Of a stretch of 34,780 nt of DNA, positions 4,738 through 34,756 are shown in pieces (the first letter of the stretch is position 1; each line of letters begins with the position of its first letter). A program made the translations under genes and the position numbers. Source of the stretch: Chromera velia (lineage: Eukaryota; Sar; Chromeraceae); the NCBI GenBank assembly GCA_018398765.1, contig JAHBMJ010001160.1, forward strand, positions 1 through 34,780. The letters run 5' to 3'. Below the pieces are notes generated by a model that worked only from the letters and a program-made list of their open reading frames with translations, had not been told where the DNA came from and did no database searches.

Positions 4738-6312
4738 ATGGACGAGATTCTTCCAGGAGGGGAAGACGAATACGAGTACGATCTTCCCATCTCGTTACGA
4801 ACGTCTGTATGGAGGGACATCGGCGAGATCACTCAGGGGGAGTCGGGGGAATCTGCTCTGGTGCCCATCAAATACCCTCCTGGATGTCCGTCAGTCCCTT
4901 TGCTCGTTTGTCTGCCTGGTAGTAGCTTCCCCCGTCATACCTGTCGGCTTGTGTAGGAGAAGAAGGGTTAGCGCCTGTGGGGGCTGATGAATTGAATTTT
5001 GTGTCGTCGCTTTTTTCGGATCATGGCTGTTTTGCTGTCTCCGCTTGTGTCGGAGCGCTCTGAGCCTCTTCATGCCTCATTCAAACGGGTGAACGTGTGA
5101 TGCTGTCATTGTTTTTAAAACTTTGTGTTCTTTCTATTCTATTCTGACTGCATGCAGTTGATTATTGTTTCCGCTTGATGCGCGTGTTGGTGGGTCGAGG
5201 CGAACTCTCTGAGAGAGGATTGGAGCTGTCGGAGGAGGCCATCAGCAGAAACGCCGCGTCGTATGAAGCATGGTGGTACAGGAGACGGTGCTTAGAAAAC
5301 CTGGGGGCAGACGTGGAAGAAGAAAAGTGTACGTTTGGGAGGCTGTGTTTGTCTGCCTGCCGTCATCTTATTTTCAGACGAATGCCCATTCTCGTGCAAT
5401 TGTCTTATCCGTTTTGCGCTGCCCCTTCCCCCTCCTCTGACTGCGGGCTGCTTAGTTTCAAAAAAAGGAAAAAAGGTATGCAAACGCTCTCCCCTCTCCA
5501 CGCTAGTGTCCGTGGGCCTTCCGTGCCTTCTTTCCTTCTTTCCTTCCCTTCCTTCCTTCCTTCTCTTTTCTCTCTAGGTCTATCTTTCTTCTTTTCTTAG
5601 ATATGCATTGTTTCTCTGGCCTTTTTTCCTTTTCTCGAAAGCACTCTGGGTCCTCTGGTATCCTTTTTGGATTCCCTTGATCGTTCTTCCTTTTGTGCAT
5701 CCTGAATGCTTTCTCTCAGACTGCGTGGACCAGTGGACCAGAGACATGCCAAAGAACTATCAGGTCGGTTTGCTATTTCTGGTTGTCCTTTTCTACTGAA
5801 GTTCTTTCTCTTTCTCATTGACAGGAAGCGGAAGAAGAAACGGGTGGAGCTAATGCATTCCATGCTCAGAATGGTCTTTCTGTATTTCGTTTTCCCTGCT
5901 CATTTCGCACTAGGCCCTTTTTTTCTTCGGGTTTCCTCTCCTCTACCCACTTGGTGAACCCGGTCATGTTGTCCTTCCTTCCCTCCTTCCTTCCTTCCTT
6001 CCTTTCTTCCCCCCTTCCCTCCTTCCTTCCTTTCTTCCCCCCTTCCCTCCTTCCTTCCTTTCTTCCTTCCTTCCTTCCTTCCTTCCCTCCTTCCTTGCTT
6101 GCTTCCCTCCCTCCCTCCGCCTTTCTTTCCCTCCTCGATGTGTGTGTGTACACTGCCTGCTCTCGAAGCTTCGTTAGACCCCCCTGTGTTCGTGCACCCC
6201 CGATGGATGGATGGATGGATGGATGGACGACTGTAGAAAAACATTCAATTCATGGAGAGGGTGTATGAATGAATGAATGAAAGAAAGAAGGAAAGAGACG
6301 GAGAGAGAGACA

Positions 6313-6363
<51 letters not shown>

Positions 6364-9300
6364 TTAGAGAGAGAGAACGAACGAATGAATGAATGAAAGC
6401 AGGTGTGGTACCACCGCAAGTGGGTGCTGGACAAACTGGGAATCTTCGAGGGAGGTCAGTCAGTTGGGTGATGGATCAGGCAGGGAGATCGTGCTGTTCA
6501 CAGTGGAGCAGGGGTCCTCGTTCGTTCTTTCGTTGGTTCGTTTGTTGTCTTGCTTTTCTCTCTCCCTCTCTCTCCCTCTCTCTCTCTCTCTGTGTGTGTG
6601 CGTGTGTGTGTGAAGGTGTGTGTGTATGTGTGTGTGCAAATCCATGGAAACAGTCGAATGCTCGAAGAAAGAGACGGAGAGAGGATCCAAGATGATGGCT
6701 CTCTTCCATTCACTTATGACTGACCTGTTGAATGATCACCTCACGGTCTGTCTGACGCACGCACGCACTCAGAGCTGGAGTTTCTCGACGAGATGCTGAG
6801 AGAAGACGCGAAGAACTACAACGCGTGGCAGATGCGTCTCTGGGTCCTCAACAGGTCTGTCAGACAGGCAGGCAGACAGACAGGCGGTTGGACCTCTCGG
6901 TCGGGGACAAACAAGTGTAATGGAGGGAGGGCATTTTTTGCCTTTTTTTTCGGCTCCCTGATCTGCGGGGCGCTCTTGCTTCGTTTCCTTTCTTCTGTCC
7001 TAAATGTTCCTTCCATTTTCCCTTTCTGTCTGTCTCTCCTCCCCCCCTTTCTCCTGCATGCAGAGTGGGCACGTGGGCAGACGAACTTCCCTTCGTGGAC
7101 CAGAAGATCATGGAGGATTGCAGAAACAACTCTGCATGGGCACACAGGTCCGTTGGGTCGTTCGTTGGTGTCTTGCAAGGGCGTACGGGAGGGACCTTCC
7201 GGCTGATGGAAAGAATTTGCAGATAGATGCACTGGAGAGACGGGAGGAGAAAGGTTCTGGAGAGAAGAGAATGACTGGCGTGTGGGGTGTCACAATGGGG
7301 AGGGAGGCATTTTTTTCTATTTTCACTCTTATCTTATGTTTCTGTTTCTGTGTGTGTTTGTTTCTGTGTATTTCTTTTTTGTGTGTCTGTGTGTTTTGAG
7401 CGTGCGTCAGGAGGGCCGTCCTGGAGCGTCTGTTTGAGAAACCCCTGCCATCAGACGTTGTGGAAGCAGAGATCAGCTACGCCTGTGGACAGGTCAGGCT
7501 ATTATCATAGTTTGCGTGGTTTGTCTCATTTCTTGCATCTTGGCAGGCTGTGTGTCCAATTTTCTCTTTCAGTCTTTCCAGCACTTCAACTTCCTCTGCT
7601 TTCATGAAGTTTCCTCTGATTATTCGCCCTCTCTTCCTCTTAGGGCGTGCAGCCTTCCAGATGCTCGTGAGTGTACGAAGGGAAGTGAGGAGACAAAAAA
7701 AAGAGGACATATCGCTGGGCCTCCCGCGTCTCCTCGCTTCGACGCTGTCCTTAGGAAGAGAAGAAACAAGGAAAGAAGAGAGAGAACAGAAGGAGGGAAA
7801 GGAAAGGAAAGGAAAGGAACAAGAACTTTTGTCGCTTCTTCATTTGCTTCCCACCCATCACTTCCTTCCGCTTTCCCCCTTCATGGTTTCCTGAATGAAT
7901 GAAGCAGATCTCCTTTGCTCCCCACAACGAATGCCCATGGAATTATCTTCTGGGGTCCGTCCGTTTTCTGTTTGTAATGATTGCATGTTGGTTTCTTGGG
8001 AGTTTTCGTTTTTTGCTTCTAGCTTATATGTATGCCTTGTTCTCGCAGGTGGAACAATATCCTTGTTTGTCTTTGTGCTGTGCCCTGCGTATTGGGCTGG
8101 ATGTATCATTATATGAAGCTCGGGGTTGACCAGTCTCTTTCGGTTGTTTGGTGACTTCTGCATTGCCTCTGATGCTCTCAATGTTCCATTGTTTCGAGTC
8201 TCTCTGCCTGTGTCTGGTCTCACCTGTCCCTATCTGTTCTGTATAACGGTCAAGCACAACCTCCCACCCAGACAGGTGTCTGCTTTCTTGCCCGCCTTCA
8301 TGCTTTCAACTTCCTTTGAAGCCTCCTGCTCTCTCGTCGTTCTTCACAAACCTCTGCACTGATCATGCACGCATCTGCAGGTTCGTTCGCCAAGAAGGAG
8401 ACGACCCGAAAGCAACGGAGCGGCTCTCTGCTTACAAACTCCCGTCGGTGGTAGGTGAGACTCTCTGTCTCCCTCTCTCTTTTGCTTGTCTGTTCAGAGG
8501 AGGATGGAGGAAGAGAAGAGAAGAAACGAGAAGTGAGAAAGTCTGCAGATCGAAAGAAAGAGAAAGAGAAGTCAATGACGCTGAGAAGCCGGGGAGACAA
8601 TTGGAATCATACCGGGACTGTCACATGTTTCCTCTCCAATGACCTTTGTGCCTGCTCTCGCTCTTTTGCTTTCCTCTTTTTTTCTTCCCCTCCCCCCAGC
8701 TCCGCTCCGTTTCTTCAAAAGAAAGACGCGAGAAGGCGGTTAAAGCAAATGTGAAAATCTCGTACAGACGTGTCTCAAAGCGATGAATGGAGAAAGATGA
8801 GGTGAGGCTGGGGAGGGAAGACGAAAGAGAAACGAACGATCGACAGCAAAACGAGTTTCTGCTTCTTTTCAGCTCTCCCTCTCTTCTGGCCATCTCCCGG
8901 ATGCTTCTCTGCATGCTTCTACGAATCCTTTCGTCTACCTGTCCTTTTCCTTTTCTTGTTCGTCCTTCCTTCTTTCTCTCTCCTTACGTGTGCAGGTCGG
9001 TGACACGGTCGAGGACGTGTTGAAAGGCCACCCAGAGTGCAGGTGAGGGGAAGTAGTGAGAGGGCTGCATGACAGAGAGAGGGAGAAGGAAAGGGGATTT
9101 TGACCCAGAAGACAGACAGATACAAAAGGAGACGCATGCACGCCACACGCACGCTCTCTCTCTCTCTTTCTCTCTGAGAGATCACACACACACACGCACA
9201 CACACACACACACACACTGAGAGAGAGAGAGAGAGAGAGAGAAGCGAACACACCCAGAGACAGAAGCAGACTCGCAGCCCGGACCAGCGACCGATTGGTT

Positions 9301-9672
9301 GATGGGAGTTCTCCGCGATTGATATGCTTTCGTTTCACCTCGTGCTTCCTTTGTGAGGAGCAGAACAGCAAAGCCGTTCATGCAGAATCGGGAGGAGGGT
9401 GACGTTGACAAGCACTGAACTTATTGGACTGATTGCCAGCTGCGAGCATTTTTTTGCTTTACCGATTTCCCTTGATTCAGTAAATGCGAGCTGAGTTCTG
9501 TTCCCAATTTACTTTGGACCGCAGGTTTGCTCTGGAGGCGAAAGCAAAAATCGCGGCCCTTCGTCAAGATGGTCCAACTGCAATCGCACTCTTTCGGAAA
9601 CTTCAGGAGGTAGACCCAGTAAGAAAGTACTACTGGATGATACGAGAGAAAGCTTTGACAAAAAAAACATGA
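4738..9672 (+). CDS. FNTA: Protein farnesyltransferase/geranylgeranyltransferase type-1 alpha subunit
   Basis: Shared alpha subunit of the two cytosolic CaaX prenyltransferases; it pairs with a beta subunit to attach farnesyl or geranylgeranyl to C-terminal cysteines. Inferred exons: 4738-4885, 5158-5328, 5720-5763, 6403-6454, 6773-6854, 7064-7147, 7411-7492, 7908-7954, 8382-8451, 8996-9042 and 9525-9672. They total 975 nt, that is 324 residues plus TGA, with every phase matching; this is slightly short for the family. Five PPTA-type helical repeats are visible: YEAWWYRR (residue 85), NYQVWYHRKW (119), NYNAWQMRLW (153), NNSAWAHRRAV (187) and ECPWNYLLGF (229). The Lys-Asn-Tyr at 118-120 and Tyr154 align with human residues lining the active site (Lys164, Tyr166, Tyr200). 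The C-terminus has the expected DPVRKYYWMIRE-type end. The start is the first ATG ahead of the conserved WRDI segment. Exon edges are by eye. Confidence 0.93.
5960..6117 (+). repeat. (TTCC)n microsatellite in prenyltransferase intron 3
   Basis: Pyrimidine-only CCTTCCTT repeats with CCCC interruptions, including a tandem duplication of a block of about 35 bp. It lies on the sense strand of the intron between exons 3 and 4. Confidence 0.9.
6200..6400 (+). repeat. Compound microsatellite: GATG, GAAT, CA, GA, GAAT
   Basis: Successive runs of (GATG)n near 6203-6226, (GAAT)n near 6264-6282, (CA)n near 6313-6345, (GA)n near 6345-6378, and (GAAT)n near 6381-6396. The last run leads directly into the AGCAG acceptor of exon 4 at 6402. 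Confidence 0.9.
6555..6645 (+). repeat. (CT)n/(TG)n microsatellite in prenyltransferase intron 4
   Basis: A CTCTCC/CTCT run is followed by GTGTGTG repeats within the intron between exons 4 and 5. Confidence 0.85.
9155..9245 (+). repeat. (CT)n/(CA)n/(GA)n microsatellite in prenyltransferase intron 10
   Basis: CTCTCTCT, then CACACACA, then GAGAGAGA runs within the intron between exons 10 and 11. Confidence 0.9.
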
Positions 9673-9973: not shown

Positions 9974-9979
9974 ATAGTG

Positions 9980-10032
9980 ATTGATTGATTGATTAATTAA
10001 TATGTTCCGCCCTCGGGCCTTCCCACTATGTC
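9980..10032 (-). mobile_element. 53-bp 3' stub of the 10.5-15.0 kb LINE family
   Basis: Read on the minus strand, this is CATAGTGGGAAGGCCC and about 15 further bases matching the 3' end of the plus-strand LINE (14950-14980), followed by an (ATCA)n-type tail. ATAGTG occurs on both sides (9974-9979 and 10033-10038), fitting a 6-bp target duplication around an extremely 5'-truncated insertion. Confidence 0.65.
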
Positions 10033-10531: not shown

Positions 10532-10969
10532 GTGTCCAATGTGAATGGAGGAAGACTGCAAGGAACGAATTTCCCGTTAGTAAGGGAGGGAAGAGAAGTG
10601 ATGACGACAGGGGGGGTGATGGTGTTGATGAGGAGAAAGGCAAGAGAGCTAGGCTTTACGACAGAAAGAACAACGGAGATAGCGGTATTTGCAGAAGCAC
10701 CAGGCTTCCCGCTCTTTGTTAGCTTGTATGACCCCCATAAAGAGTCGAACTACACAGATGAGACATACCTCAACAATTTAGCAGCTAGTTTGGTAGAAAG
10801 AATCGAAGAGAAAAGAGCAGAGAGAGAAAGAAAAGGAGAGAGCAGATTCTCAGAGGTCTGCGTGATGGGGGATTTCAACGCCCGCACTGGAAAGAAAACT
10901 CCTTTGATAGTCTGGACAGGGAAGGGAGGGGGAGAAAGGGAAGAGTGGGCACAAATAAGCGGGAGCTAG
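10532..10969 (+). pseudogene. LINE endonuclease fragment
   Basis: This frame ends in a segment with VCVMGDFNARTG, which matches the GDFNA core of APE-type LINE endonucleases. Upstream, the segment PLFVSLYDPHKES resembles the strand leading to the YxP motif of that fold. The frame is open for 145 codons, but the N-terminal catalytic motifs are not recognisable and the C-terminal SDH motif is absent. It is therefore a remnant. Confidence 0.8.
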
Positions 10970-12259
10970 TGCAGAAAAGAGGAAGTTTTCAGACCGGAGA
11001 GGGAGTCTGAAGACGAGACGGAGAACACAAAAGGAAGGGCTCTTATTCGTTTTTGTGAGATGGTGGGCATTGTTCCTCTGAATAGACTGAGACGATGTGC
11101 GGTCGAAGAGGAGGGAGAGAAGGTAGCCTTCAACTTCGATTGATCGTTTACCTTTGACAGCGGGGGAGACAGAGGAAGGTCCCTGATCTCCTGTGTCTCT
11201 GCCATCTGTTCTTCTTTTTTCTGTATTTTGTGTGTGCTCAGCTTGGTCAGAGCATTCAGCTCTTAGATTAGTCCTGAGGGAGAAAGAAAGAAAGAATGAG
11301 AGCGGCGAGAGAAGAGGAAACAAAGAAGAGAACGAAGCCAACCAAGAACAGAACAAAAAGAAAAGAAGAAAAGATAGGTGAAAAAAGATAAAAAAGAGGG
11401 AAAAGAAAAAAAAAATGAGAAAAGAGAAGATCAAATCAAGCCAAGATGGAAGGGAATGCTGACAAAGGAAGGAGAGGAGAGGTACCTCCAAGAGCTTCAG
11501 AAAAGAGTGAAGGAGGAAAAAGTGAGTGAGGTCTTTCAGAAAGTAATGGATATGGAAGAAAAAAAAAAATAGAGAAAGACTTACTCAACGAAACATACTA
11601 GAAATTCTAATATATCAGAGAGAAAACCTTAATATAAGCAACAAGGAAGGAGAAGAAAGAAGAAAGAAAAAAGGAGAGGAAAGAAGAGTCAGCAGAAGCA
11701 CTGAGAGGGGAAGGAAGAAAGCAAATAAGAAAACTCAGAAGAATAGAGAGAAAAGTGAGAGAGGAAATCAGAGGCCTGAAAGCAGTCTGAAAAAGAGAGC
11801 AGAGGGATAAACGAGAAAAAGAGAGCAGCATCTCAGCTCAGGAAGGAGAAAGATTGAGACAGACATACGAGGAGAGGAGAAAACAGTTAGTCATGATAGA
11901 GAGAGCACTGAGAAACGCGGTGACAAGAGAGCAACGGAAGGCAGAAAAGAGAAAGGTGGAGAACATAAGAGCCGAAATAAATGAAAGAGGCTGCTGAAAG
12001 GTGTGAAGGAGACTGGGTGAGGAAGATGGGAGGGCGGCACCAAGAAAAATAAAAGACAGTATGACGCCCCAGCAGGCAGTATGCAGAAGGTTTCAAATAA
12101 ACGTACAAGCTGCCATAGGAACAGAAAGAAGAGAGAAAGAGGGAACAAGAAGGAAGAACGACAGTAAGTAGAGCGATTCTAGAGAGCGATTAAGGAGAAA
12201 AGATGACATATAGCAGAGGAGAAGGAGGTAAGAAAGGCAATGAAAAGAGCAGGCAACCC

Positions 12260-13942
12260 CAGATTCTGAAAGGCCGCTGGGAAGGATGGAATACCCCCAG
12301 TAATGCTGAGAACGATGGAAAAATTGACTGAGCTGGTATCTTTGTAATATATTTTGTTAATTAATGTTGTATATTATTTTGGCTGGTGGCCAAAAATGTG
12401 GAACAACTTGCCGGTGACGGCTTTTCCAAAACCAGGTAAGTCATTTGTACTGCTTGAGGGATGGAGGGGAGACTCTCAGTGCACTTGGTGGTAGCAGATA
12501 TGAAATAAAGGGACATGATCATGAGAATGAAGGTAAAGAAGGAAGCTAAACAGACGCTATAGCAGTTTGCATATAAGAAAAAAGCAAGCACATACGATGC
12601 AATTTTTCTTTTACTGTTCGTTATTGCTCGAATAGAAGTGCTCAGTGTTGCTTTTGTTGACTTTACGTGGGCTTTCGACGAAGTAAGGCTGGAAAAGTTG
12701 AAAGAGAAATTGAGAAAGGCAGGGGTGGAGGAAGGTCTGATCAGATGGGTTGAGGCCTTAGAGTCTCTGAAAACAGTGAGGGCACGGGTGAAGGGAACGA
12801 GCATATGGTATCTAAAAGACAAGAGACTCAAGCAAAGAGGCCCGAGCGGCCTTTCCCTTTACTCTATATATACAGATGATTTACCGGAGGAAGTAGGAAA
12901 TTCAAAGAGAAGAGGACAGAGACGACAGACCGACAGACAGAGGCCAAACTTTAAGGTACCGGCAGGAGAAAACGGGAGGTGCCACTGGGTTGATTTCCTT
13001 ACCCCTCTGTTTGCAGATAACACAACACTCCTCGAATCCTCAGATAGACAGTTGAACCTTCTTCTTTCGAACCTTGTAGCCTTTGCAGAACCTCTCCGTC
13101 TTCTATTTTCTGACAAGTCGAGATTGGTCTGGTTTGGCCGCATCGCATCAAGAGAGAAAGAAGAAGTTAGACTAGAGGAGATAGTGATAAAAGAAGCAAG
13201 AGAACAACCCTATCTGGGACTAGTCCTATCCACCGACTGCAACCAAGAGACTATGATGGAAGCGTGGTCAATCAAAGCAGAGAGATGCATGCAGGGACTA
13301 ATGGGGAAGATAGGAAAGGAGGGAGGGATTCCACACGCTGATTGCTTCAATACATTTAAACAGACAGTGTATGCCGTGTGGTTGTATAGATATGAAAATT
13401 TAATCCATCCATACCCAGATTGTGCGTATGCAGAATTTGACGAAAAGCAAAGGAGATTTGTCAGGTTTGTTTTGCATTTGAGAAAGAAAGAAAATTGTGA
13501 TACCCTGATGATGGAAGGAGGTTTCATTCTAATTGATCTCAAAGTGGCTTCCAGAACGATCCGGTGGGCAGAGAAGGCTTTAAAGGAGAAAAGAAACGAA
13601 GCGGTAGGGCAGGCAATCCTTACATGCCTGAGAGAGGGGGTAGAGAACGAAATGGGGGGGGGGAGAGGAATACATCCTTTTCATCTTTTCCTGCATCTGA
13701 AGCAATGTGCTGCATTATGTGTACAAGCACTCTACATAGACAGAGGAATGCACCTTTTTGCAAAAGAAAGACTAAAAGGAAGCGCAGGGCAGAAAAAAAC
13801 ACAGGTAGTCAATGAAAATGTGGATGGGATAGAGAAATGGCTGCTAAAGAGAACAAAAAATGAGCTAGACGAGAAAAGGAGAGAGGCGTTTGCATATAGA
13901 ATAGAAAGAAACATAAAAAAGAAGAGCAGTCAGGAGAATTAA
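12260..13942 (+). pseudogene. LINE reverse transcriptase remnant, catalytic Asp lost
   Basis: Recognisable blocks: KAAGKDGIPPVML (about 12270-12308, the conserved entry block), QFAYKKKASTYDAIF (about 12566-12610), VAFVDFTWAFDEV (from about 12645; motif A with its Asp), GPSGLSLYSIYTDDL (about 12841-12885; motif B region) and FADN at 13010-13021, where the family has [FY]ADD. Change of the second Asp to Asn should abolish polymerase activity. From 12638 the frame is open for 434 codons, so this half is better preserved than the 5' half, where stops interrupt 12340-12600. Downstream blocks such as YLGLVLS fit the LINE thumb region. Confidence 0.88.
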
Positions 13943-13958
13943 GGCAGAACTGATAGGA

Positions 13959-14892
13959 GTGATGATCACTGACGTGCACAGAAAGGTCTTAAACGGAAAC
14001 CGTCTCCACCTTTCTTTATTTCAAGATAGAACAGGTAGAAAGGTTGGCTCGACAATGAAAATAGACAGAGAGAGAATAAGGAGAGCCCTTTTTTGCTATA
14101 CGAGAGTGGCGCTGCGATCAGAACACAGGAGAAGAGCAGCATGTAGGGTAAGAGACAGGACTGTAGCTGCAACTCAGGGAAAAATTCTGGTAAGGGGGGG
14201 AGAGAAGGTGCCGTCACAGAAAAAGACGTGCCAGTTCTGTCAAAGGTGGTTGGGAATCGAGGTGGTGGAAAACGAAAGCCATCTGGTGACAGAATATTCT
14301 GTTTTTGACAGAGAGAGAGTAGAGATATTCAGGAAGATAGAAGAGAAATGGGACAGCAAGATGGAAAAAAGAGCTAGAAAGGCAGCCACACAAAGAAAAG
14401 GGCTCAACAAAGAAGAGGGAAAAAGAGACAACTCGACGTTTTTCTGCTTTCTGTTGAATATATGACTGTCATACCGCAGTGGATGAGTTTTTGGGATAGG
14501 CGTCATTCAGATGGAGGGTGTTTGAGGAGTGTCCAGAATGGTATGGACATATTATAATAAAGGGAGACGCTCTGGCGGCCAGACATACAGGAATCACCGG
14601 AAAGCAGCGAGCGATCGAGAGATTAACAAAAGAATATGAGGAGACGATTGATAACTTAGAGACGACTGAAGGAGCATTAGGGTGGGGAAGGAGAGAGCCG
14701 CAGAAGAAGATTAATAAAGTGAACAAGAAGAGCGAGGAAGCCCAAATCGCATGCCGTTTTAGATCGATTTTCAGGCCGGAAAGCCGACACAGATCCAAAG
14801 CCGTGGCTCGAACAACGAACATTGTCAATCATGCAGCAGCGCTGCAGTGGCCAGGGCAACACACTCTGGCGGGCCCCCAAGGCGGGGTTTGA
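13959..14892 (+). pseudogene. LINE C-terminal region remnant
   Basis: Two consecutive frames, 13959-14465 and 14518-14892, are separated by a stop and a frame break. The first contains CQFCQRWLG and about 15 residues later ESHL, resembling the C-x2-C ... H ... C domain that closes many LINE proteins. The last Cys is not visible (a TEY sequence stands there), so the finger looks broken. The second frame is charged and probably coiled-coil; its assignment to the LINE rests on position. Confidence 0.6.
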
Positions 14893-16338: not shown

Positions 16339-16348
16339 AAAAACGTAA

Positions 16349-17128: not shown

Positions 17129-18840
17129 TCAGGCCCGAAGCCCTTGACGGAGCTCTTCTTTCGTCTTCTTTGCCCCCAGCCAGCCCCGCAAGGCCTGCTT
17201 TTGCAGTCTCTTCCTGGGGACAACACAGTGAGATAATCGAGAGAACAAGCAGTACAGAGAAAGGGAAAAACGCTGCAAGATCCAGAAATACCGAATGTGG
17301 CTGCTGAATCTTCTGCAACCCTGCGTGATCTGGGTGCCGCTCATGTTGCAGGTCAACTTTGCGAAATCGGAACGTACCAGCACGATGCAGGCTATTACAA
17401 AAAGCACACCAAGGCACACACATGCAATCACGAGCAGAACCAGGAGGGAGTACCATGTACATGATTTCAGCTGAGACCGAGTGTCCTCTGCCGAGTCACC
17501 AATTCTGAAACGCAAAGTGCGAATTTCACGTCTCGCTTCGGGTGAACAGATATGTCCAAGGGTCTGTACCATCAGAACAGAGAACAGGCCAACTGCAACG
17601 AGACTTTCGGCTGACCGCATGTAGTAGATGCCTCCTCTACACATCAAAAAGATACCAAGACCGAAAGACATCGCGCAGACAAACGCCAGTGTGAGATTCT
17701 GGTTGCCCCAAAATTTCATGCGGCTTCTCCAAAATTCCAACGTGTCGACAGCTGTTTGGGTCAGGCCGAGCAGAGACCCGAGGCCCATTAAGGCCATGGT
17801 CAGGAAAGAGGGGATGATCCAGGCTAATGGTTGAGGCATCTGAGCAAGAGCTGCGGGAAAGACCTCGAAGGCCAACCGCACCCCGCTCTTGTCCAGGTTG
17901 GACATGTCAGCGCCTTCCGTGGCATGCACTACCCCTGCTAGGCTGAAAACTAGGCAGGCCGCAAGGACAGACATGACAAAGTCTAACACTGGGATCGCGA
18001 CTGCGAGCTGGCAGACCGGGGTATCCCAGCTGGTGCGGGCCCCGAAAGTTGTGTAGGCTCCGAATCCAGAGCTCAGGGAGAAGAACGCCTGCTGCCCTGC
18101 AGCAACCCACACCCAAAGGTCTTTTAGTTTTCCCCACTCAGGCTGCCAGCCGTACTGGAGCCCCACCTTGCTGCTCTCCCAATGGGCCGCCCATGTCCCT
18201 CCAAGGAGGGCAAGCAGGAAAACGGAGGAGAGTATCACGGTGACGCTGGTCACGGTCCCCTACCACCGAACATCCAAGCTTAGGGCAACGAATACAACCA
18301 CCCAGCAGACTGCCAGAGCAGCGACGAGGAACCCCTGGGGCATGCCGAGGTCGTTCGCCCCCTCACTCACGTGCAAGACGTCCCTCCTAAAGGACGTCTC
18401 CGCACTCGTCAAGGACTCCGCAGGACCTTCGAAGATGTAATACAGGGAGTACGCGATCACGGGGGCGTACCAGATTCCGACACCAAAAGAGAGGACGGAG
18501 CACGCAGGACCGACGGACTTGAACAAAGATGCACTCTGCGTTCTCCAGAAAGCCGTGGAGCCTGTGGGACAGACACAATTGGATTTCGAGAAGAGAGAGT
18601 GAGTTAGAGAGTGAGTGAATTAGAGAGTGAGTGAGTGAGTGAGTGAGTGAGTGAGTGAGTCTGTTCAATTTAGAAAAAACGGCTAAAAAAGGGGTCGATA
18701 AACAAAGCAAGAACGAACGAACGAACGAAAGAAAGAAAGAAAGAAAGAAAGAAAGAAGGAAAGAAAGAAAGAAAGAAAGGAAGGAAGGAAGAAAGATAGA
18801 AAGAAAGAAAGACAGACAGAAAGAAAGAAAGAAAGAAAAA

Positions 18841-18871
<31 letters not shown>

Positions 18872-18983
18872 GAAGAAAAAACAAGAACGAACGGAAGAAC
18901 GACAGAAAGAACAACAAGAAAAAAAGAAAGAAAGAAAGAAAGAACAACAGAAAGAAAGAAAGAAAGAAAGAAAGAAGAAAGAA

Positions 18984-19019
<36 letters not shown>

Positions 19020-19125
19020 ACAACAGAAAGAAAGAAAGAAAGGACGAAAGGAAGGGAGGAAGGACGAAAGGAAGGAAGCAAGGAAGAAAAAACAAGAACG
19101 AACGGAAAACGACAGAAAGAACAAC

Positions 19126-19157
<32 letters not shown>

Positions 19158-19165
19158 ACGAAGAA

Positions 19166-19201
<36 letters not shown>

Positions 19202-19372
19202 AGAAAAAAAAAAAGAAAGAAAGAAAGAAAGAAAAGAAAGAAAGAAAGAAAGAAAAGAAAGAAAAGAAAGAAAAGAGAGAAAGAAAGAAAGAAAGAAAGA
19301 AAAGAACAGACAGACAGACAGACAGAAAGAAAGAAAGAAAGAAAGAAAGAAGAGAAAGAGTGAGAGAGAGAG

Positions 19373-19411
<39 letters not shown>

Positions 19412-20559
19412 AAACAAAGAAAGAGTGATTGATCAACGGCCCTTCGACGGCGGGCAGGCAGTACCTCTAGGCTCTCGACAAACAGACTTGGCCTTTCAAT
19501 CATGTGATGATAAAAAAAAAAGAAAGAAAGAAAGTTCGAAAAAAGAAAAAGCTCACCCTTTCCGGACCTCTGCCCGATTCCTAGGTCCGTTGCAAACAGT
19601 GGAATCCCCAAGCAGAAGTGGATGAGGCAATAGGGAACCAGGGCAGCGGCACCCCCGTTGGAAAAAAGGAAGGACGGAAACCACCAAAGGTTTCCAAGCC
19701 CCACAGCATAGCTGACAAGAATCCAAAAGATACCAGTCTGCAACAGCAGCGATCGATCAATCAGACGAAGTGAAAACGACGGCTATCGCGCACTGGCTTT
19801 CAGCAAAGTCATGTCGCTGCAGAATTGAAAAAAAAAAAGACGCACCTGGTTGTTGAAGGGTTGCCTGTCTTCTCCAACCTCTCCGCCATCCTCTCCGGCA
19901 GGTCCGGCACCGCCGTCTCTCGCTCCGGCGGTGGGAACCTCCTCCACTGAACGGGCACCGCTGTCTCTCGCCTGAACCAAGACGCCACTTGGCACCTTAC
20001 GTTGATCTGGGGTGACTGGGCTGCTGTCCTGTGACTCTCCCTCTCCCCCTTTCCCCTCCCCCCTCTCGGAAGAACACAAAGAGCCGCTTTCAATGGGTAT
20101 GGGTTGAAGGTTTGACGGCACCCCGGTGGAGTGAGGAGAATGAGGGGCTGCGGAATTGGACAAATCAGACGAGGGGGGGGCTGAGAATTCTGCGTTTGAG
20201 GTCGGAAGAGGACTGCGACTTCCGCTTTGAGTGCTGCCGGCATTGGGCGTGACTAGGGTCCCCGGGGGCGTCGGAAAGAAACCTCCAAGGCCCCCCCTCA
20301 CAGCATTACCGTTCAGTATCGCGGAGGTCCCTCCACTTCTCTGATCCGTCTCTTCACTTGTGTTGACCGAATCCGCTGCAGAGGAAGTGTCTGAACCTGG
20401 CCGGGATGCCTCCTCGGAGCGTTCACTTCGCATCTGCAGGAAAGCATCTGCGCTGTTCCCATCTGAATTCGAAGCAATGCGCGCGAGTCCTTCAATTGCA
20501 CCATCCTCCGAGCCCTCCTCGGGTCTTTCACTTTCAGAGACGGAAGTGAGACGTGTCAT
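17129..20559 (-). CDS. SLC6/neurotransmitter:sodium symporter family transporter, in-frame TAG
   Basis: Sodium-coupled amino-acid or amine transporter of the plasma membrane (LeuT fold). Inferred exons: 20559-19846, 19737-19557 and 18561-17129. Phases match at both junctions (donors GTGCGT and GTGAGC). Residues 1-238 are a Ser/Gly/Pro/Glu-rich cytoplasmic tail. TM1 contains SYAVGLGNLWWFP, followed by NGGAAALVPY and LGIPLFATDLGIGQ (TM2), all diagnostic. Exon 3 holds STAFW, a TM3 with GIWYAPVIAYSLYYIFEG, the TM6 signature FFSLSSGFGAYTTFGAR, and TM8 with MGLGSLLGLTQTAVDTLE. The usual gate arginine of GNxWRFP is Trp. A TAG at 18260-18262 interrupts the frame between TM4 and TM5. The C-terminus is uncertain: either the frame runs to 17129, or splicing near 17325 adds a Gly/Ser-rich tail to about 16995. 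Substrate cannot be told. Confidence 0.85.
18602..18660. repeat. (GAGT)n microsatellite in transporter intron 2
   Basis: GAGTGAGT tandem repeats on the plus strand ((ACTC)n on the sense strand), 40 bases upstream of the acceptor of exon 3. Confidence 0.9.
18715..19418. repeat. About 700-bp (GAAA)n tract; (TTTC)n on the sense strand
   Basis: GAAAGAAA repeats with GGAA, GACA and AACAACAG interruptions. One interrupted block (AGAACGAACGGAA, CGACAGAAAGAACAACAAG) occurs twice, near 18890-18920 and 19096-19130, so the tract grew partly by segmental duplication. All frames are open across it, which creates long artefactual reading frames. It fills most of the 995-base intron 2 of the transporter gene. 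Confidence 0.95.
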
Positions 20560-21478: not shown

Positions 21479-21483
21479 GAATT
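21479..21483. repeat. Copia target-site duplication GAATT, left
   Basis: GAATT directly precedes the left LTR and recurs at 27276-27280 directly after the right LTR. Five bp is the usual length for Ty1/Copia elements. Confidence 0.75.
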
Positions 21484-21733
21484 TGAAAGGTACTAAGCTC
21501 TAGCGGAGAAGAGAATTTACTATAGGAGGATTCAAATTATTTATACGGAGAGGACTGATAAAAAGGAGAATGTCTTCCTTCTTATCAATCAGTCTGTTTG
21601 ATTCGTATCCAATCTTGCTTTAATCAATATGCAATCACTATTCCATAAATCTATGCGGCACGCTCGCCCCGCGTATCTCAATAAGATGCAGCGGCGGATC
21701 TGGTGGCGGGCACCTCCATATTGAGCCCTTACA
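21484..21733 (-). repeat. Copia 3' LTR
   Basis: 250 bp, starting TGTAAGGGCTC and ending CCTTTCA on the minus strand, so it has TG...CA ends. Aligns without gaps to 27026-27275. Confidence 0.9.
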
Positions 21734-21843
21734 GTCACCCCCTGATCATAAAAACAGAGAACGATCACTCAAAGGCGGAGAAAGTGCACCTTCTTTGCAA
21801 AATCAATGACTTTCCGCCTTGCACCTGATCTGACAGCAGTCGA

Positions 21844-26976: not shown

Positions 26977-27025
26977 TATTTTTGAAAATTCCAGTTTGAC
27001 TCAATTAGATCGTGACACACTGAAC

Positions 27026-27275
27026 TAAAAGATACTAGGCTCTAGCGAAGAAGAGAATTTACTATAGGAGGATTCAAATCATTCATACGGAGAGGACTGA
27101 TAAGAAGGAGAATGTCTTCCTTCTTATCAATCAGTCTGTTTGATTCGTATCCAATCTTGCTTCAATCAACATGCGATCACTATTCCATAAATCTATGCGG
27201 CGCGCTCGCCCCGCATATCTCAATAAGATGCGGCGGCAGGTCTGGCGGCAGGCACCTCCATATTGAGCCCTTACA
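27026..27275 (-). repeat. Copia 5' LTR
   Basis: 250 bp. Aligns gap-free with 21484-21733, with 17 differences. Its inner end reads TTTTA in place of TTTCA on the minus strand, so the terminal CA is lost by one transition. Confidence 0.9.
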
Positions 27276-27280
27276 GAATT
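27276..27280. repeat. Copia target-site duplication GAATT, right
   Basis: GAATT directly follows the outer end of the 5' LTR and equals 21479-21483. Confidence 0.75.
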
Positions 27281-27802
27281 TTACAGTCAGATTGTCTTTT
27301 TTGTACCGTCCCTCCTCTGGGCTGTTCGGCGACTTGGATGCATACATGCAGATCTGCATGCAACTATTAGTAGATAAGTACATGCGGACCCTATAGCCCC
27401 GGAAAGCGAAGCGGGGGGTACTTACTAAACAATTCCCAGAGCCCACAATACATGGAGCTTTCGTCAAAAAAAGGCCCCGGAAAGAACTGTCCCCTTGGGC
27501 CAAAAAAGCGCCCACCGATTCCTGAAGTGCTCCAATGTGCGTGCGTCAATTTAATTGTTGAGGTGCGTATGTTTATATGCTAGGTTTATGTGCGTCAGGT
27601 GAACATAAAATACATGTAGCCTCGGGTGTGCACAGACTGCTCATAACGTAGCTTTTTTGACGATTAAAAATTGATGCACGCATTCTGATACCCTGGAAAG
27701 ATCGCTGAGGGGGCATTTAATACAATTCAAGTACTTCGGAGTCTAAAGGTAATTTCGCTTTCTGGGCTATTCGCACGTAGTGCGTTAGATTAATGGACCC
27801 CT
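27281..27802. other. Intergenic, no gene seen
   Basis: Mixed-composition sequence with GCCCCGGAAAG occurring twice (about 27397 and 27470) and GCAGATCTGC at about 27349. No frame with coding character. Confidence 0.4.
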
Positions 27803-28173
27803 GTGGAGTCCTACCCTGTGGTACCGCCCTCTGGACCCTCGTATACGCTGTATCTGAATGAGCCCGCGTACTGACGCCATGCTCCACCGCCGCATGCATG
27901 TATACGCAATCGACTTACATGCATGTACGTATCGTGTGCGTCGATTAAAGTTGTCGAAGTCGAGTCTGCATATGACCTTCACATTCAAGCAACACGTCAC
28001 TTAAGCAACGGATAGCATCGTTTGAGTCTGATGTCTGTTCGTCATAGATCAAGAGAGCCCCTAAGAGTCTGAGAGAGAGGAACGAGTAGAAACTATGCAT
28101 GATAGAATGAACGCAGCTGATTAGAATCCCAGATCGCGCTAGAACTTAAACTGATGTAGGGACAAACCTCCTG
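27803..28173 (+). repeat. 371-bp direct repeat, copy 1
   Basis: Aligns without gaps to 30999-31369 with 20 differences, of which 19 are transitions. About 17 fall in the first 160 bp and three in the last 210 bp. No terminal inverted repeats, tail or target duplication were seen. No coding function is recognised. Confidence 0.9.
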
Positions 28174-30998
28174 AAGCTGGCCAAGAGCATGCAAAGTATT
28201 AGCGACTGAGTGTGACTGGAGCGTCTTTTGTCTGGAGTTGAGAGTTCATGTATCGAAAAGAGTAGCAAGGGGATGAAACGAGACAGAAAAAAGAGACGAG
28301 ATAAAAAGAGACTAGCGGGGCAGTCTGCAATGTGTCCGGTCCCTTCCCTCCTTCCTTTATGCAGCTACTGACACGCGCAGAGTGTGTTTGTGCTTGACGA
28401 GACTGTTGAATCCTTCTGTTGACGAGAACTCCAACTCGATTGCCCACCCCTACGTCAGCTATATATGAAAAGGGCAGAGGACTGCCTGATTGTTGCCGTC
28501 ATGTACTTATGTCTGCATGTGCCCGCGACTGTCTGTGACTGCCTTTGCGCCCCTGCACTGAACTTAGGGGGGGAGTGAGCATTGCAAGGCTGAGTGTCAA
28601 AGAGGTGGACTGCGAGAACAATAAGCCAAGCGCCGCATGTGCCGCACATTCGGAACTTCTGGAGCTCCTTTTAGAAGAGTGACCTTTCTTCTCTCTCGGC
28701 TTTTCTTCTTTGCGCGTGACTTGCGAGTCAGACCCCTCGTATGGCTGAGAGCACGAGCACACGAGGGGGCGCCTTCATTCACTGTCTCCTTCTCGCTTCC
28801 TTCTGCTGCTTTAAAACGTTTCAGGTTATCCCTGGCTTCCTCCTTAATTTAAGAAAAAGAGACTGGAAGAGGTGGAGAGAAAATGAGTAGAGAAGGAGCA
28901 AAAAGAGAAGAAATCTTTAAAGAGATGTCTGGTTCAACGAGAAAAGAAGAAAAAGCGAGGGGACAGCCTGTGTATGTCTCTGTGTCCCTTCTGTATCTTC
29001 TCCCTGCAGGGGGATGCCGGTGCTTTGGAGGCCCTCTGGGTTCTCTGGGTATCGCTTCTCCCCCTTGCAGCACGGGAATTGATGGGGGCCTTGGTGGAGC
29101 CAGCCGTCTCTGCGTGAGCATCTACGTGGAGCTAGACGGTGTACCGCCAGGCGTCTCCCTCCGATAGGTCTGGCTGGGTGCCGTTTATTGGTTGATGTCC
29201 GTTGTCTTGATTTGCCCTTCCCTGCCTCTATCACTTTGTGCCCGTCTCTTCCCTCATGCTGGAATGCAAGGTTTGCTGTGTCTCTCTCTCATATAGCTCC
29301 AGTGCTTTCGGTTGCTTGCCCCGGTCTCAGACTGTAACCGTTGTATTGGGTCGATCTACGGTGTTGGTGATAACGAGCGAAGAGACGCGCATGCAGTCTT
29401 TGGGAAGGAAGTGAGATAGAAGAGAGAGAAAGAAATAATGTGGATAAATGTGTGTGAGGCTTTCTGCTGCCGCCCTCTGGTTTTGCCGTCTCTTCATGTT
29501 TTGTTCGAACCTCCGTCTGCCCGTCACTTGCATTCAGCAAAGAGAAGTAGAAGGGGATCTCTTACAGGCGTACTATTCTGTCTGTTGCCCACTTCCTTCC
29601 AGCAAGCCGGTCTGAGAAAGAGAGAGAGAGAGTGAGAGAAGGCGAAACGAAGTCGAAAAACGGAGTTGGCTACCTCTTTCCTTCCGCTAGTTCCACCTCT
29701 TTCTTTTTGATCACTTTGTCGTTGGTGGTATTCGATCTGCGTCTTTGTTTTGAAACTATAGAGGTGTGGGAGGTGCAGCTTTGTCTTTCCATCCCGCTTC
29801 AAGGGAAACGAAGGCAGTATGAAAGAGAAATGAGAGAAAAAGGAAAGGGTGGAACTGCGTAAAAGTTTGAAAAACGGGGATTTGTTGGAATGAGCTTGTT
29901 TATCCCTCTTAGAATTTTTGTATTGGCCTCGTCGCTGCTTTCTGTTTTACCGCCTTCCGGTGCCCTCTGATACTATCCCGTTTATGTGAATGGTTTAGCA
30001 TGTGAAGATCTAATGTGGTGGGAGTGTGTATATGCATACATGCATGCCTGAACTTTTGTCCCGTTAGTTCTTTGGTTGGCCATACGTGTCCCTCTGGGTC
30101 TGTCTTTTTGTTCTTCTGTAAAAGGTTGATCGGTCTGCCCTTTTCTTTTCCCAGTTTCAGCTGTTTGCTTCTCTGGTTTCTCGCTGTGGCTGCCTTTTCT
30201 ACTGGCAGCATCGAAACGAACTCTTGTCATACAGGGTGTGTTATTGAGAGTTTATTTCCTTTATTTTTGCTTCTATGTAGCCATGTTCGCTCATCTGACT
30301 TTGCCGCATTGGTGTAAGGCCGGCGCCTTGGAGGAGGAAAGAAGATAAAGAGGGGAAAGCAAAGCAGGAGTGAGAAGTAACAATCTCTAAACAAAACAGA
30401 GGAAGGTAAAAAAAAAAAAGTAAAGTAAACGACTACGAGTGTATAAATCGGTATAGGGATGCATGCATATATGTGACCGCACGGATGAATTGGGACTGAC
30501 TGTGTCCTGCTCTCTGTTGCTCTTTCTGTCTAGCATTTTTGTCTCGTTCTTTCTTTCTAGGGGGTACGAAAAGTTAATAGAAAGCCGGGAAACGTAAGAC
30601 CTTGCAATGGGAAGCTTGCGGCCATCGAATGACAGACCCTGCTGTTAGGTAGGGAGGGTGTGCTTCTGCAGACCCCGGGCAAGCCGACGTCTCTAAAACA
30701 GGCTTTTCGAGGAAAGACCTGGTGGGTTGGCGTTGCCGGCGAGGCAGTGGTGATAGTACCTTTGCACACGTTAATCTGATTGACTTGCATCAATGGGAGG
30801 AAACTTTTCTGTTTGTCAGCTTTCGCATCTAAATTTTTTCGACTACCTCCTTGAAGGTGTTCTGTTGGTTACATGGGTTTGCATTGCGTCTGCATGGTTG
30901 ATCATGTCCTTTTGCTTGTCTTTTTTCCCTTTCCGCGCATGCTCGAATGTGTGTAATCGCGGGGACACGATTTTTTTGTCCGTGGCCGGGGGAGATCC
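28174..30998. other. Long stretch without a recognised gene
   Basis: The plus strand is pyrimidine-rich from about 28650 on, resembling the introns of the prenyltransferase gene. Several good acceptor-like sites occur (CTCCCTGCAG at about 29010, TCTTTCTTTCTAG at about 30560). A frame of 94 codons at 28883-29167 (+), starting MSREGAKREEIFKEM, could contain an exon, but no family or consistent splicing was found. Confidence 0.4.
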
Positions 30999-31369
30999 GT
31001 GGAGTCCTACCCTGTGGTGCCGCCCTCTGGACCCTCGTATGCACTGTATTTGAATGAGCCTGTGTGCCGACACCATGCTCCGCCGCCGCGTGCATGTATA
31101 CGCAATCAACTTATATGCATGTACGTATCGTGCGCGTCAATCAAAGTTTTCGAAGTCGAGTCTGCATATGACCTTCACATTCAAGCAACACGTCACTTAA
31201 GCAACGGATAGCATCGTTTGAGTCTGATGTCTGTTTGTCATAGATCAAGAGAGCCCCTAAGAGTCTGAGAGAGAGGAATGAGTAGAAACTATGCATGATA
31301 GAATGAACGCAGCTGATTAGAATCCCAGATCGCGCTAGAACTTAAACTGATGTAGGGACAAACCTTCTG
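30999..31369 (+). repeat. 371-bp direct repeat, copy 2
   Basis: Second copy of 27803-28173, same orientation, same length. Sequence outside the copies is unrelated at both ends. Confidence 0.9.
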
Positions 31370-31971
31370 TAAACTGTGCACGACTGAGTGTTGTAGATCT
31401 TCCCTAAGGTTCTTGTCCTCGCTTTACCTTCTGTCTGGACGCCATAAGGTGGCCGGACAGGGGGGACAAAGCACCCTGCTGCATGCCCACATGCTTGCAT
31501 GCAGCATCGCGGGCCGGCCGGCCCCCGGCTGGCCGGGAGCCGAGCGCATGCGTTGCGCGTCCCCAGCTAGCATGGTCCCGGCATGCCAGCCGCGGGGCAT
31601 GCCAGGGCCGGGGTCGAGCTAGGGAACGACATGCATGGAACGACACTGCAGGCGCGATGGCAAATGCCACACAGCACAAGTTTCGATCACTCCTTCTTGT
31701 GAAGCAGAACGTTACTCATCTGTGCAGAAAACTGTCGACAGGAAGCGAAGAGCCCCTTTTCTCAACAGCGGTCGAACTTCTGCTTCTGCAAGAAATTTCC
31801 TTTCGGGGAGAAATTTCCGTTTTGGGAACTTTTCTGTGGAGGCAGTCTGATATCGGGAGATTCTCAGTGTCACTCCTCGTGATCTCCAACAGGAGTCGGT
31901 AGCTGTCTCATCTTTCGACTTGAGTTGAAGGAAAAAGCACTTCTCCAAACATCCACTCTCATCAGACCACA
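31370..31971 (+). promoter_or_regulatory. 5' flank of the UBA-protein gene with twin GAAATTTC palindromes
   Basis: Two perfect 8-bp palindromes GAAATTTC at 31792-31799 and 31810-31817, starts 18 bases apart, both followed by C, about 160 bases before the inferred ATG. They look like paired binding sites for a dimeric factor (inference). Further upstream (31480-31640) is a GC-rich island with repeated GCATGC and GGCCGG palindromes. No TATA box is evident. Confidence 0.4.
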
Positions 31972-33982
31972 ATGGACGAAGCAGAGAAGATCCAATCACT
32001 GGTCAGTGCTCTAAGTCGAAACTTGTTGATCAAAGGTCATGCAGTCGCGTCTTTGACTCTCCTTTTTTTGCCAGACAGACCTGGGGTTCATCATTTTGCG
32101 CTTGCAAGCCGCGTGAAACAGCTCTTGATTGTGTGAAGCTCTGTGGAAGGGAAACCAGCCGAAGCGGGGTTTCCCTTCTTTTCCAAGCAATACCTTCCTT
32201 GCCGTGTTTGTCGAACAATCGAGCGCCCTGTCCTTATTCCTACGTGCAGACCAGCCTGGGCTGTTCTGAGGCGAGAGCGAGGGAGGCTCTTGCAGCCACA
32301 AATGGTCAGGAGAGGCTTGGAATGACAAGGAGGTCTTTCAAAATCGTGAATGACCGTTCACGCCAGTTCTTGTTTTGAGTTGCAGCGCTTGTCTCTTACT
32401 GGTCGTTCTTTACCCCCGAACTTTGTTCGTGTTGATCCTCGCCTGCTGCGTGCCTACTTTTCCTCCCTATTCGTGGACCTCTTCTTATTTTCGCATCGCT
32501 TATTGATCTGTGAGAAGTTTTCTTCGGCTTGACTGTGAAAGTCACCTCTCTTCAAAAGTCGTCATTCATTGGAGTCCTTTCTTCTTTTCCCTCCCATTCC
32601 ATCTGTTCTTTCCCTCTCTTTTCTTCTTTTTCTTTCGCACAGGGAATCTGGAGGCTGCTGGTGACTGGATTGCCAACGTCATGTTCAATCCCCATATGGT
32701 CAGTGTATTGGCTCTGCTTTGCCTTCCTCCTCGTTCTGTTCAGTCTTCTGATCTGATGGACGCTCTGTCAGATGCTCCTCCGACTTTCCAGGTCCACATC
32801 AGCGGTCCCTTTCCTCTGCCATCGTTTGCACGCGTTGAGAAATGCCATTCTGTATCATTTTATCTTTACAGTTGTGCCCTGCTGCGCGCCTGCCTGTTTG
32901 CCAAGCCGAGTGCTCGATGGATCGATCCTTCGGGCTTGAACAGAAAGGACCGCCCGTCTCTCTCCTGCTCTTTCCTGCCCTTCTGCACTTCTACCGACTA
33001 CCCGTGCAGGTAGCTGCCCCCATAGCTGACGGAGAGATGTTTGAGATCTCCGACGACGAGGAGGACGCCCCTCCCGAGCCAGCGAGACGCTCCTCCCGAG
33101 TCGCCCCGCCTTCCCCCAACCGTTCCCGCAACTATCCCGTTCCCCCGCCCAATCCCTTCGTTGCGCAGCCCCCTTCCATGGTCTCCCAACCCCAAGAGAA
33201 TCCTTTAGGATCCCAAAGGCGTCTGTCTCGAGAGGAGAGACTACAGCAGAGAACAGAACGGAGACGGGCTCGCGACCGCCCTGCGCCTCCAGCAAATCAG
33301 CAACAGCCGTCGCAGGGGGTGGTGGGGTTTGGAGTGAGCAGCGGTATGTCTGCTGGTATTTCTTTGGGGGATGCCTCCCGTCAGGCCATCAAGAGAGATC
33401 GGCCCGAGGACCTCCGACAGGACGCAGCGATGGATGAGGCGGAGAGGCTGCAGGAGAGAGCGAGGCAGCGGCTGGAGGAAGAGAGAGAGAAGAACCGAAA
33501 GCAGGCGGAGGAAGCACTGCGATATGTTCCCCAAGAGATCAGAGACAGGGCAGGAGTCGGGACGGCTGCTGCAGCCTCGTCCTCTTCCTCTTCTTCTTCT
33601 TCCTCAGCCCTGGCAGCAGCTGGTGGAAGTGCCGTCGGAGCAGCAGCAGCCGCCGAGGAGGACCGGAAACCGACTGTCGTGTGCAAGGACCTGTACTCGT
33701 CCTACACGGTCAGTCAGTCAGGCAGGTAGGCAGTGGATATTTGAGTGCTCTAGGCGCTGATGCAGGGGAAAGAAAGGGTAGTGCAGCAGTCTCGATCGAT
33801 CGATCAGCCTGTCACAGCTCTTTCTTTCTTTCTTTCTTTCTTTTCTTTCTTTCTTTCCTTCTTTCTTAATCAAATTTCAACTGCTTCCCCCTCCCTGTCT
33901 TGGTCTTTCTTTTCCGCTTCTTCTGACGGACGGACAGAAACATCGAGGGGCAGCGTTAGCTTTCTTCCTTCCTTCGTCTCTC

Positions 33983-34016
<34 letters not shown>

Positions 34017-34756
34017 AGTCTGTCCGCTTATAATGATAAGGAAAAAGAGGAAAGAAACAGACGGAGCCACACTTATCTCTGTGTTTCTGTGTCTGTCTCT
34101 TAATTAATTCAGGTGAATGCGAAGTGGCAGTACCAGTCAGATACCCGGTTCTGTGAGTCGCATTTCGCCTCGACTCTCTCAGACTGGAAAAAGCGGTCAG
34201 TTAGTGAGCGAGTGATTGTCAGAGGTTTGTTTTTTAATGGGTTGGCTGGTTCTTTCGTCTCGGGGGGACGCTTGGTCCTCTCCGTCGCTGACCTGTTCCC
34301 TCACCCTCCCCGCACGCATCAAACCAAATGCCGATCCAGAAAGGGCGGGGCGTTCTGTCTCTCTTTCTTTCTTTTCGGTCCTCTCCCTTCTTCCTTCAGT
34401 TTCTCTTGCTTCCCTGGCCTTACTACTTTCTCTCGCTGGGATTGAAAAGCAAGGGCAGCAGAGAGACCGTGAGACTCTCAGTTGAATGCCCCCCCGTGGT
34501 TTGTGTTTGCCTCGTCCGAGCTGAACCCACCCACCCACATATACATATACAGACCGATGTATGTGTCAACGTCCCCGAAGGGTGAGAGGGAGGGACTGAA
34601 TGCAAATAAATGTTCATGAATGTCACTCACGTGAGGGAGGTACTGCATGAATGTCAGGTTTGAGATTGAGTCTGCGGCGAAGTTCTGGCTGAAGGAGAAG
34701 TGGGCCCCCAGAGATGAAAAGAGAAACTACTACTACAACTCCAGGACCAGCACCAG
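31972..34756 (+). CDS. UBA-domain protein, 3' end cut off by contig end
   Basis: Inferred exons: 31972-32001, 32250-32304, 32643-32698, 33010-33708, 34113-34195 and 34658-34756, with continuous phase; a 48-base in-phase exon at 32744-32791 is possible. Residues 1-47 form a UBA-type ubiquitin-binding domain: the core LGCSEARAREALAATNG and NLEAAGDWIANVMFN match the MGF-x(n)-AL-x(2)-T-x-GN-x(2)-A-x(2)-W(IL) pattern, with Cys for Phe in MGF. An acidic SDDEED patch, a Pro/Arg-rich stretch, a Glu/Arg-rich coiled coil and a Ser/Ala low-complexity linker follow. The last two exons give a conserved-looking segment (WQYQSDTRF, SHFASTLSDWKKRFEIESAA, RNYYYNSRTS), whose YYYN-x2-T pattern faintly recalls the back half of a WW domain. 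The role is likely ubiquitin-linked; the exact protein is not recognised. Confidence 0.75.
33820..33866 (+). repeat. (TTTC)n microsatellite
   Basis: CTTTCTTT repeats in the intron after the long exon of the UBA-protein gene, the same motif as in the transporter intron. Confidence 0.9.
33980..34016 (+). repeat. (TCTG)n microsatellite
   Basis: TCTGTCTG tandem repeats, about nine units, in the same intron. Confidence 0.9.

Follow-up and report, generated by a model that had tools for sequence, protein, structure and literature searches.

The window analysed here is a stretch of 34,780 nucleotides of the Chromera velia genome (contig JAHBMJ010001160.1), taken from an assembly of 177.8 Mb in 4040 contigs (GCA_018398765.1). 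It carries a prenyltransferase alpha-subunit gene and a UBA-domain gene on the plus strand and a transporter gene on the minus strand, and the subject of this study is the 5' splice sites (donors) of their introns and of introns elsewhere in the genome. Most eukaryotes have A or G at the third intron position (+3), and the canonical donor is CAG/GTRAGT (the slash marks the exon end). In C. velia the donor code of major-class GT-AG introns has shifted genome-wide: C is the commonest base at +3, T is rare there, G at +5 is near-invariant, +3C is coupled with +4A and +7C, and the letters of the U1 and U6 small nuclear RNAs (snRNAs) that read the donor are canonical. The introns and donors of the three window genes are as follows.

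Prenyltransferase alpha-subunit gene, intron 1: 4886..5157, plus strand, donor GTCCGTC
Prenyltransferase alpha-subunit gene, intron 2: 5329..5719, plus strand, donor GTACGTT
Prenyltransferase alpha-subunit gene, intron 3: 5764..6402, plus strand, donor GTCGGTT
Prenyltransferase alpha-subunit gene, intron 4: 6455..6772, plus strand, donor GTCAGTC
Prenyltransferase alpha-subunit gene, intron 5: 6855..7063, plus strand, donor GTCTGTC
Prenyltransferase alpha-subunit gene, intron 6: 7148..7410, plus strand, donor GTCCGTT
Prenyltransferase alpha-subunit gene, intron 7: 7493..7907, plus strand, donor GTCAGGC
Prenyltransferase alpha-subunit gene, intron 8: 7955..8380, plus strand, donor GTCCGTC
Prenyltransferase alpha-subunit gene, intron 9: 8451..8995, plus strand, donor GTAGGTG
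Prenyltransferase alpha-subunit gene, intron 10: 9043..9524, plus strand, donor GTGAGGG
UBA-domain gene, intron 1: 32002..32249, plus strand, donor GTCAGTG
UBA-domain gene, intron 2: 32305..32642, plus strand, donor GTCAGGA
UBA-domain gene, intron 3: 32699..33009, plus strand, donor GTCAGTG
UBA-domain gene, intron 4: 33709..34112, plus strand, donor GTCAGTC
UBA-domain gene, intron 5: 34196..34657, plus strand, donor GTCAGTT
Transporter gene, donor GTGCGT: 19840..19845, minus strand, read from 19845 down
Transporter gene, donor GTGAGC: 19551..19556, minus strand, read from 19556 down

All 17 donors named in the original prediction are present in the window sequence, and its counts of C at +3 (12/17) and G at +5 (17/17) are reproduced (+3 C12 G3 A2; +4 A 9, C 5, G 2, T 1). 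The prenyltransferase and UBA genes together have +3C in 12 of 15 introns. Here and below, exon ends are predicted from protein similarity, phase and coding statistics. Joining the prenyltransferase exons at their 10 donors gives an open 324-residue protein, which matches PPTA repeats (E 4.3e-36) and, tested as a whole chain, aligns to the human FNTA sequence (local score 428). The joined UBA-gene exons form an unbroken 340-residue frame with a UBA domain (E 1.7e-6) that extends across introns 1 and 2, and the transporter exon between 19556 and its acceptor (minus strand) matches the SNF family (E 1.3e-13).

Donor composition outside the window

Genes outside the window were located by tblastn with human protein sequences as queries, and the regions were fetched. 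For each pair of adjacent matches, candidate introns starting with GT, GC, GA or AT and ending only in AG were compared by the score of the protein alignment alone. A join was accepted if its donor led the runner-up by 5 or more and its normalised score reached 1.5 or more; frames and alignments came out consistent. Ten loci gave 53 joins, of which 38 were accepted as unambiguous introns (the protein-anchored set); the 15 ambiguous or poorly aligned joins left out comprise 4 GTC, 7 GTR and 4 GC starts. All 38 accepted introns begin with GT, the other starts having been permitted.

At +3, the 38 introns have C21 G10 A7 T0, with a purine in only 17. GTCNGT fits 20 of them and GTRAGT 2, supporting the proposal, made from the window, that +3C donors replace GTRAGT genome-wide. 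The remaining positions show +4 A18 G12 T4 C4, +5 G38, +6 T30 and +7 C25, with +9G and +10T each in 25/38. The background for +3 was taken from 449 AG/GTNNG sites in the same DNA (both strands, true donors included), which have C133 G131 A98 T87; against these, p is 0.00085 for the excess of C and 0.00028 for the lack of T (all p values treat introns as independent). C is the commonest +3 base under all 15 threshold settings tried. Prp8, whose exons match the human protein at up to 98% identity, has +3C in 8 of its 10 accepted introns. What is odd is that the +3 position tolerates C as it does a purine, but not T.

The control was a gene finder that requires GT and +5G and favours AG at the exon end but gives no weight to +3, +4 or the later bases; of 48 known introns it recovered 41 with the loosest threshold and 35 with the one adopted. 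Only its first round was used, a retrained version being set aside. It predicted 57 further introns, 8 of them among the 15 dropped protein joins. Four predictions antisense to accepted genes and six that overlap one another were removed (A 7, G 2, C 1 at +3), which raised the C share; the 47 remaining introns have C32 G8 A5 T2. Combining these with the 38 protein-anchored introns and 15 from the window gives a set of 100 donors (95 full introns and the 5 UBA donors), while a larger, earlier set of 110 donors includes the 10 introns later removed. The 100-donor set has +3 C65 G19 A14 T2 (a purine in 33), GTCNGT in 52 and GTRAGT in 4, and differs from the background with p 2.9e-13 for C (65/100 versus 30%) and 1.4e-7 for the lack of T. 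No report of a +3C donor preference was found in the titles and abstracts surveyed, which cover the literature in part.

Coupled donor positions and four-base repeats

Position +4 was regarded as free in the original prediction, which the protein-anchored introns contradict. With C at +3, +4 is A in 14/21 (versus 4/17 with a purine), while with a purine it is G in 9/17 (versus 3/21 with C). T at +6 accompanies +3C in 20/21 (10/17 with a purine), and C at +7 in 19/21 (6/17 with a purine). The links of +3 to +4 and +7 persist among the 100 donors (p 0.001 to 0.003), with +7C in 45/65 +3C donors versus 12/33 purine donors. The UBA gene of the window has +7C in just 1 of its 5 +3C donors. AG at the exon end shows no significant difference between +3C (11/21) and purine (12/17) donors.

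The coupling of +3C to +7C arises because intron starts run as four-base units, (GTCN)n, as does noncoding DNA here generally. In the 38 introns, identity between positions four apart exceeds column-shuffled expectation for the pairs (3,7), (4,8), (8,12), (11,15) and (12,16) (p 0.0025 to 0.0045), with p 0.06 for (7,11); in the 100-donor set all six pairs exceed it (p 0.004 or less). Across the 95 full introns, identity at distance four is 0.384 inside introns, 0.422 at positions 7-40 and 0.447 near the 3' end, compared with 0.257 in coding DNA. The 3' ends carry the same periodicity, and TGCAG terminates 26 of 48 introns. Tandem units starting with GT, counted over 215.6 kb on both strands, are most often GTGT (151), followed by GTCT (87), GTCA (60), GTGA (36) and GTTT (31). 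Tandem units begin 27 of the 100 donors: GTCA 17, GTCT 4, GTCC 2, GTCG 2, GTGT 1 and GTGG 1. Tandem GTGA begins none, although intron interiors hold 5 GTGA and 6 GTCA tracts (p 0.005). Among the 15 protein-anchored introns in which +7 differs from +3, 13 have a purine at +3, which ties C to the repeat.

In two alpha-tubulin genes an intron lies at the same position (L039:4701-4970 and L040:4787-5006, the latter placed by the gene finder). Both introns keep CTG/GTCAGTC but are otherwise diverged, with 148 of 277 aligned columns identical. The alpha-tubulin protein itself scores highest with PDB entries 7tnt/7miz (927 bits; Toxoplasma), ahead of 9r4x (903) and 6u42 (895), which points to an alveolate close to Apicomplexa.

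Several repeats are visible in the window itself. CCTG/ACTG-type arrays lie at about 1830-2400, and a long GAAA-type tetranucleotide array (18600-19430) sits within one of the introns of the SNF transporter gene on the minus strand. By eye, a decayed stretch resembling a non-LTR (long terminal repeat) retrotransposon occupies 10550-14760 on the plus strand, a stretch of about 370 bases is duplicated (27800-28170 and 30990-31370), and near-identical direct repeats (21480-21745 and 27020-27285) flank a minus-strand region resembling a Copia-type polyprotein. To judge from this arrangement, the region bounded by the direct repeats is probably an LTR retrotransposon.

Spliceosome components and related intron systems

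The shift itself, as proposed in the original prediction, extends across the genome, but the altered U1 or U6 that it took to be implied is not supported. Compensating protein contacts, which it named as the other option, and snRNA modifications are weighed below as possible causes. Inspection of the U1 5' end and the U6 ACAGAG box for compensatory bases found canonical letters and none that compensate. U1 has one full-length match (79 bits) and one 3'-truncated copy, both starting AAACUUACCUGG, and a third copy without its 5' end; the canonical ACUUACCUG is present in both copies that retain the 5' end. The full-length copy carries A instead of U at position 2, opposite +7. ACAGAG is intact in all 7 U6 matches and followed by T in one of them. 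The search for a U1-like gene carrying the matching base (ACTGACCTGGCTGGCG) found none among the best candidates scored, a sampling that a strongly diverged variant could escape. The sole exact ACTGACCTGGCTGGCG 16-mer, on contig C379, was rejected as a U1 gene, having no Rfam match and surroundings that are not U1 (local alignment score 16; a control stretch scores 9 and the two other U1 copies 106 and 102).

Among the proteins, an SNRNP27 gene is present (87 bits) with its YMNRKGGFNR stretch intact, a single contig carries METTL16-family exons in order, two of them above the cut-off, and a U1-C gene and one LUC7 locus also occur in the genome. The METTL16 Pfam family includes bacterial proteins (matches in 5 of 14 control genomes), and the U1-C family likewise has matches in some of the bacterial controls, so that both genes are named putatively. 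Loss of METTL16 or SNRNP27 was considered as a cause and rejected, SNRNP27 and METTL16-family genes both having been found.

The introns belong to the U2-type (major) GT-AG class, +3C being a variant feature and no bar to membership. They resemble canonical CAG/GTRAGT introns in the GT start, +5G, the preference for AG at the exon end, the CAG end, the U1 5' end and the U6 ACAGAG box, and differ in having mostly C at +3, a +4 linked to +3, a four-base repeat continuing from the donor and GTRAGT in only 2/38. The U12-type (minor) donor motif is RTATCCTT, and RTATCC occurs in 0/38 donor hexamers.

Three further systems invite comparison. In Saccharomycotina, donor switches from +4A to +4U occurred with the U1 ACUUACC and U6 ACAGA letters unchanged (PMC10581693). 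This is likewise a change at one donor position in a clade without a change of U1 or U6 letters, but it affects +4 rather than +3 and is tied to loss of METTL16 and SNRNP27K, both of which are found here (METTL16 putatively). The two 5' splice-site classes read by U5 or U6 (PMC11732430) also involve donor classes with linked positions; in C. velia, however, the link lies inside the intron (+3, +4 and +7), and the difference in exon-end AG is not significant. Amoebophrya (PMC7789003) is likewise an alveolate with unusual intron ends, whereas the accepted introns described here begin with GT in 38/38, a U1 gene is present, and the sampled introns show no sign of inverted-repeat pairing or of families.

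Possible causes of the shift at +3

We tentatively favour, at somewhat less than even confidence, the explanation that a donor code of GTCAGTC-like (commonest) and GTRGGT-like starts, with GTRAGT nearly gone, arose from a joint cause: a supply of GTCN units and a C-preferring reader of +3, for which a G of U6 is the simplest candidate. Noncoding four-base periodicity with an abundant GTCN unit would often supply intron starts as (GTCN)n, and the spliceosome would tolerate them if the main reader of +3 is something other than U1, in which position 6 mismatches C as well as T. The position would then be read at a stage preferring C over T, possibly through U6, in whose ACAGAGA box a G opposite +3 could form a full pair with C; +4A and +6T may compensate by keeping the U1 helix strong enough. 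GTCN supply explains part of the pattern. Calculated U1 pairing is alike for the two bases (-8.2 kcal/mol for GUCAGU, -8.4 for GUUAGU), yet T occurs in 0/38, so that the lack of T needs another reader and the acceptance of C requires recognition beyond U1 pairing. From this we infer two joint causes, supply and recognition. It is possible, though doubtful, that the choice at +3 has passed from U1 to another reader that prefers C, either U6 by pairing or an unknown protein that recognises GTCNGTC, with snRNA letters unchanged, a natural uncoupling of the demands of U1 and U6 on one base.

A number of observations weigh against the joint explanation or the counts behind it. GTA is scarce inside introns (81 of 899 GTN), and relative to supply A is therefore enriched about as much as C. 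A gene finder with a flat donor model was noisy: at score 9 it gave 54 new introns, only 25 of them with +5G (+3 C 24, G 19), and G overtook C at the stricter scores of 12 (17 versus 15) and 15 (13 versus 11). After retraining of the finder blind to +3, the loosest threshold recovered 31 instead of 41 of the 48 known introns, and more +3T came through (8/62 at score 8). The link of +3 to +6T loses significance in the 100 donors (p 0.09), and the 47 gene-finder introns taken by themselves show no significant +3 coupling (p 0.12 to 1). Where +7 differs from +3, the 100 donors have C20 A13 G10 T1, which loosens the tie of C to the repeat (C in 20/44). GTGA, the textbook start, begins no tandem donor, so that supply alone is insufficient, though it favours C. 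The U6 candidacy presumes a contact at +3 like that of spliceosome structures, and most eukaryotes, which have the same U6 G, are not known to favour C at +3. U6 pairing also leaves +7C unexplained, and GTCT, which would pair best with U6 (-5.0 kcal/mol versus -1.9 for GTCA) and is the commoner unit, is the rarer donor (4 versus 17 tandem starts).

The main rival to U6, which we consider unlikely but worth weighing, is that GTCNGTC serves as a single extended motif for a sequence-specific protein or for a changed contact of Prp8, U1-C or LUC7, with +3C and +7C selected together. The company that +7C keeps with +3C, in the 38 introns and in the whole set, fits such a reader, as do the frequent +9G and +10T, out of reach of U1 and U6 pairing, and the 17 donors begun by tandem GTCA against none by GTGA, though GTGAGT suits U1 better. 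The UBA gene, with its single +7C, speaks against it, and since the periodicity also runs through intron interiors and 3' ends, (GTCN)n at the donor need not be a signal. For U1-C, SNRNP27, the METTL16 family and LUC7, presence is established, and the one stretch inspected, in SNRNP27, is intact. That same periodicity, the abundance of GTCN units and the purines prevailing at non-repetitive starts (13/15) would suit a tolerant spliceosome that takes any GTVNG start, so that +3 merely mirrors local four-base repeats. Supply acting alone is improbable, however: T is found in 0/38 and 2/100 donors, though tandem GTTN (72 tracts) is about as frequent as GTGA, GTGC and GTGG together (74), C far exceeds its share at background sites, and tandem GTGA is missing from donors relative to intron interiors.

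Changed chemistry, such as a different modification of U1 (e.g. at position 6) or U6 that makes C acceptable, agrees with canonical snRNA letters and with a report that pseudouridine can stabilise duplexes whichever of A, G, U and C it is paired with (PMC3950712); because that stabilisation includes U as well as C, yet T is excluded at +3, we judge it quite improbable. An origin of the introns from introners or transposons, with intron ends derived from terminal repeats of a mobile element, +3C as its legacy and the ends possibly pairing, has in its favour that some introns begin GTCAGTCAG and finish CTGACTGACTGCAG, inverted copies of each other, and that introners are known in dinoflagellates (PMC7789003, PMC9860276). 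In 48 introns, however, GTCAGTC starts and CTGAC/TGACTG ends are unassociated (2/13 versus 6/35, p 1), and an intron's own ends pair no more strongly than with the ends of other introns (-9.40 versus -9.61 kcal/mol, p 0.68). Pairing of inverted repeats at the two intron ends was accordingly rejected in this set. The 24 similar pairs among 105 introns are all simple-repeat stretches or one place predicted on both strands; no non-repeat family was found, in a sample too small to exclude a minority of introners. This origin is very improbable for the shift as a whole. A compensatory base change in U1 or U6 is least probable of all, the U1 5' ends and U6 boxes found being canonical; a variant could have gone unnoticed only if it was unassembled or strongly diverged.

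U1 is the first to read the base at +3 and U6 does so later; both are compatible with a purine in well-studied species, so that their shares are hard to separate there. Since U1 pairing cannot tell C from T, a genome with C commonest at +3, T nearly excluded and canonical letters in both RNAs separates these shares. The pattern suggests that the repeat content of noncoding DNA may shape the splice signal. Gene finders tuned to GTRAGT would perform badly in this genome, where the rule by which donors are read seems to have shifted without visible change in the usual partner RNAs.

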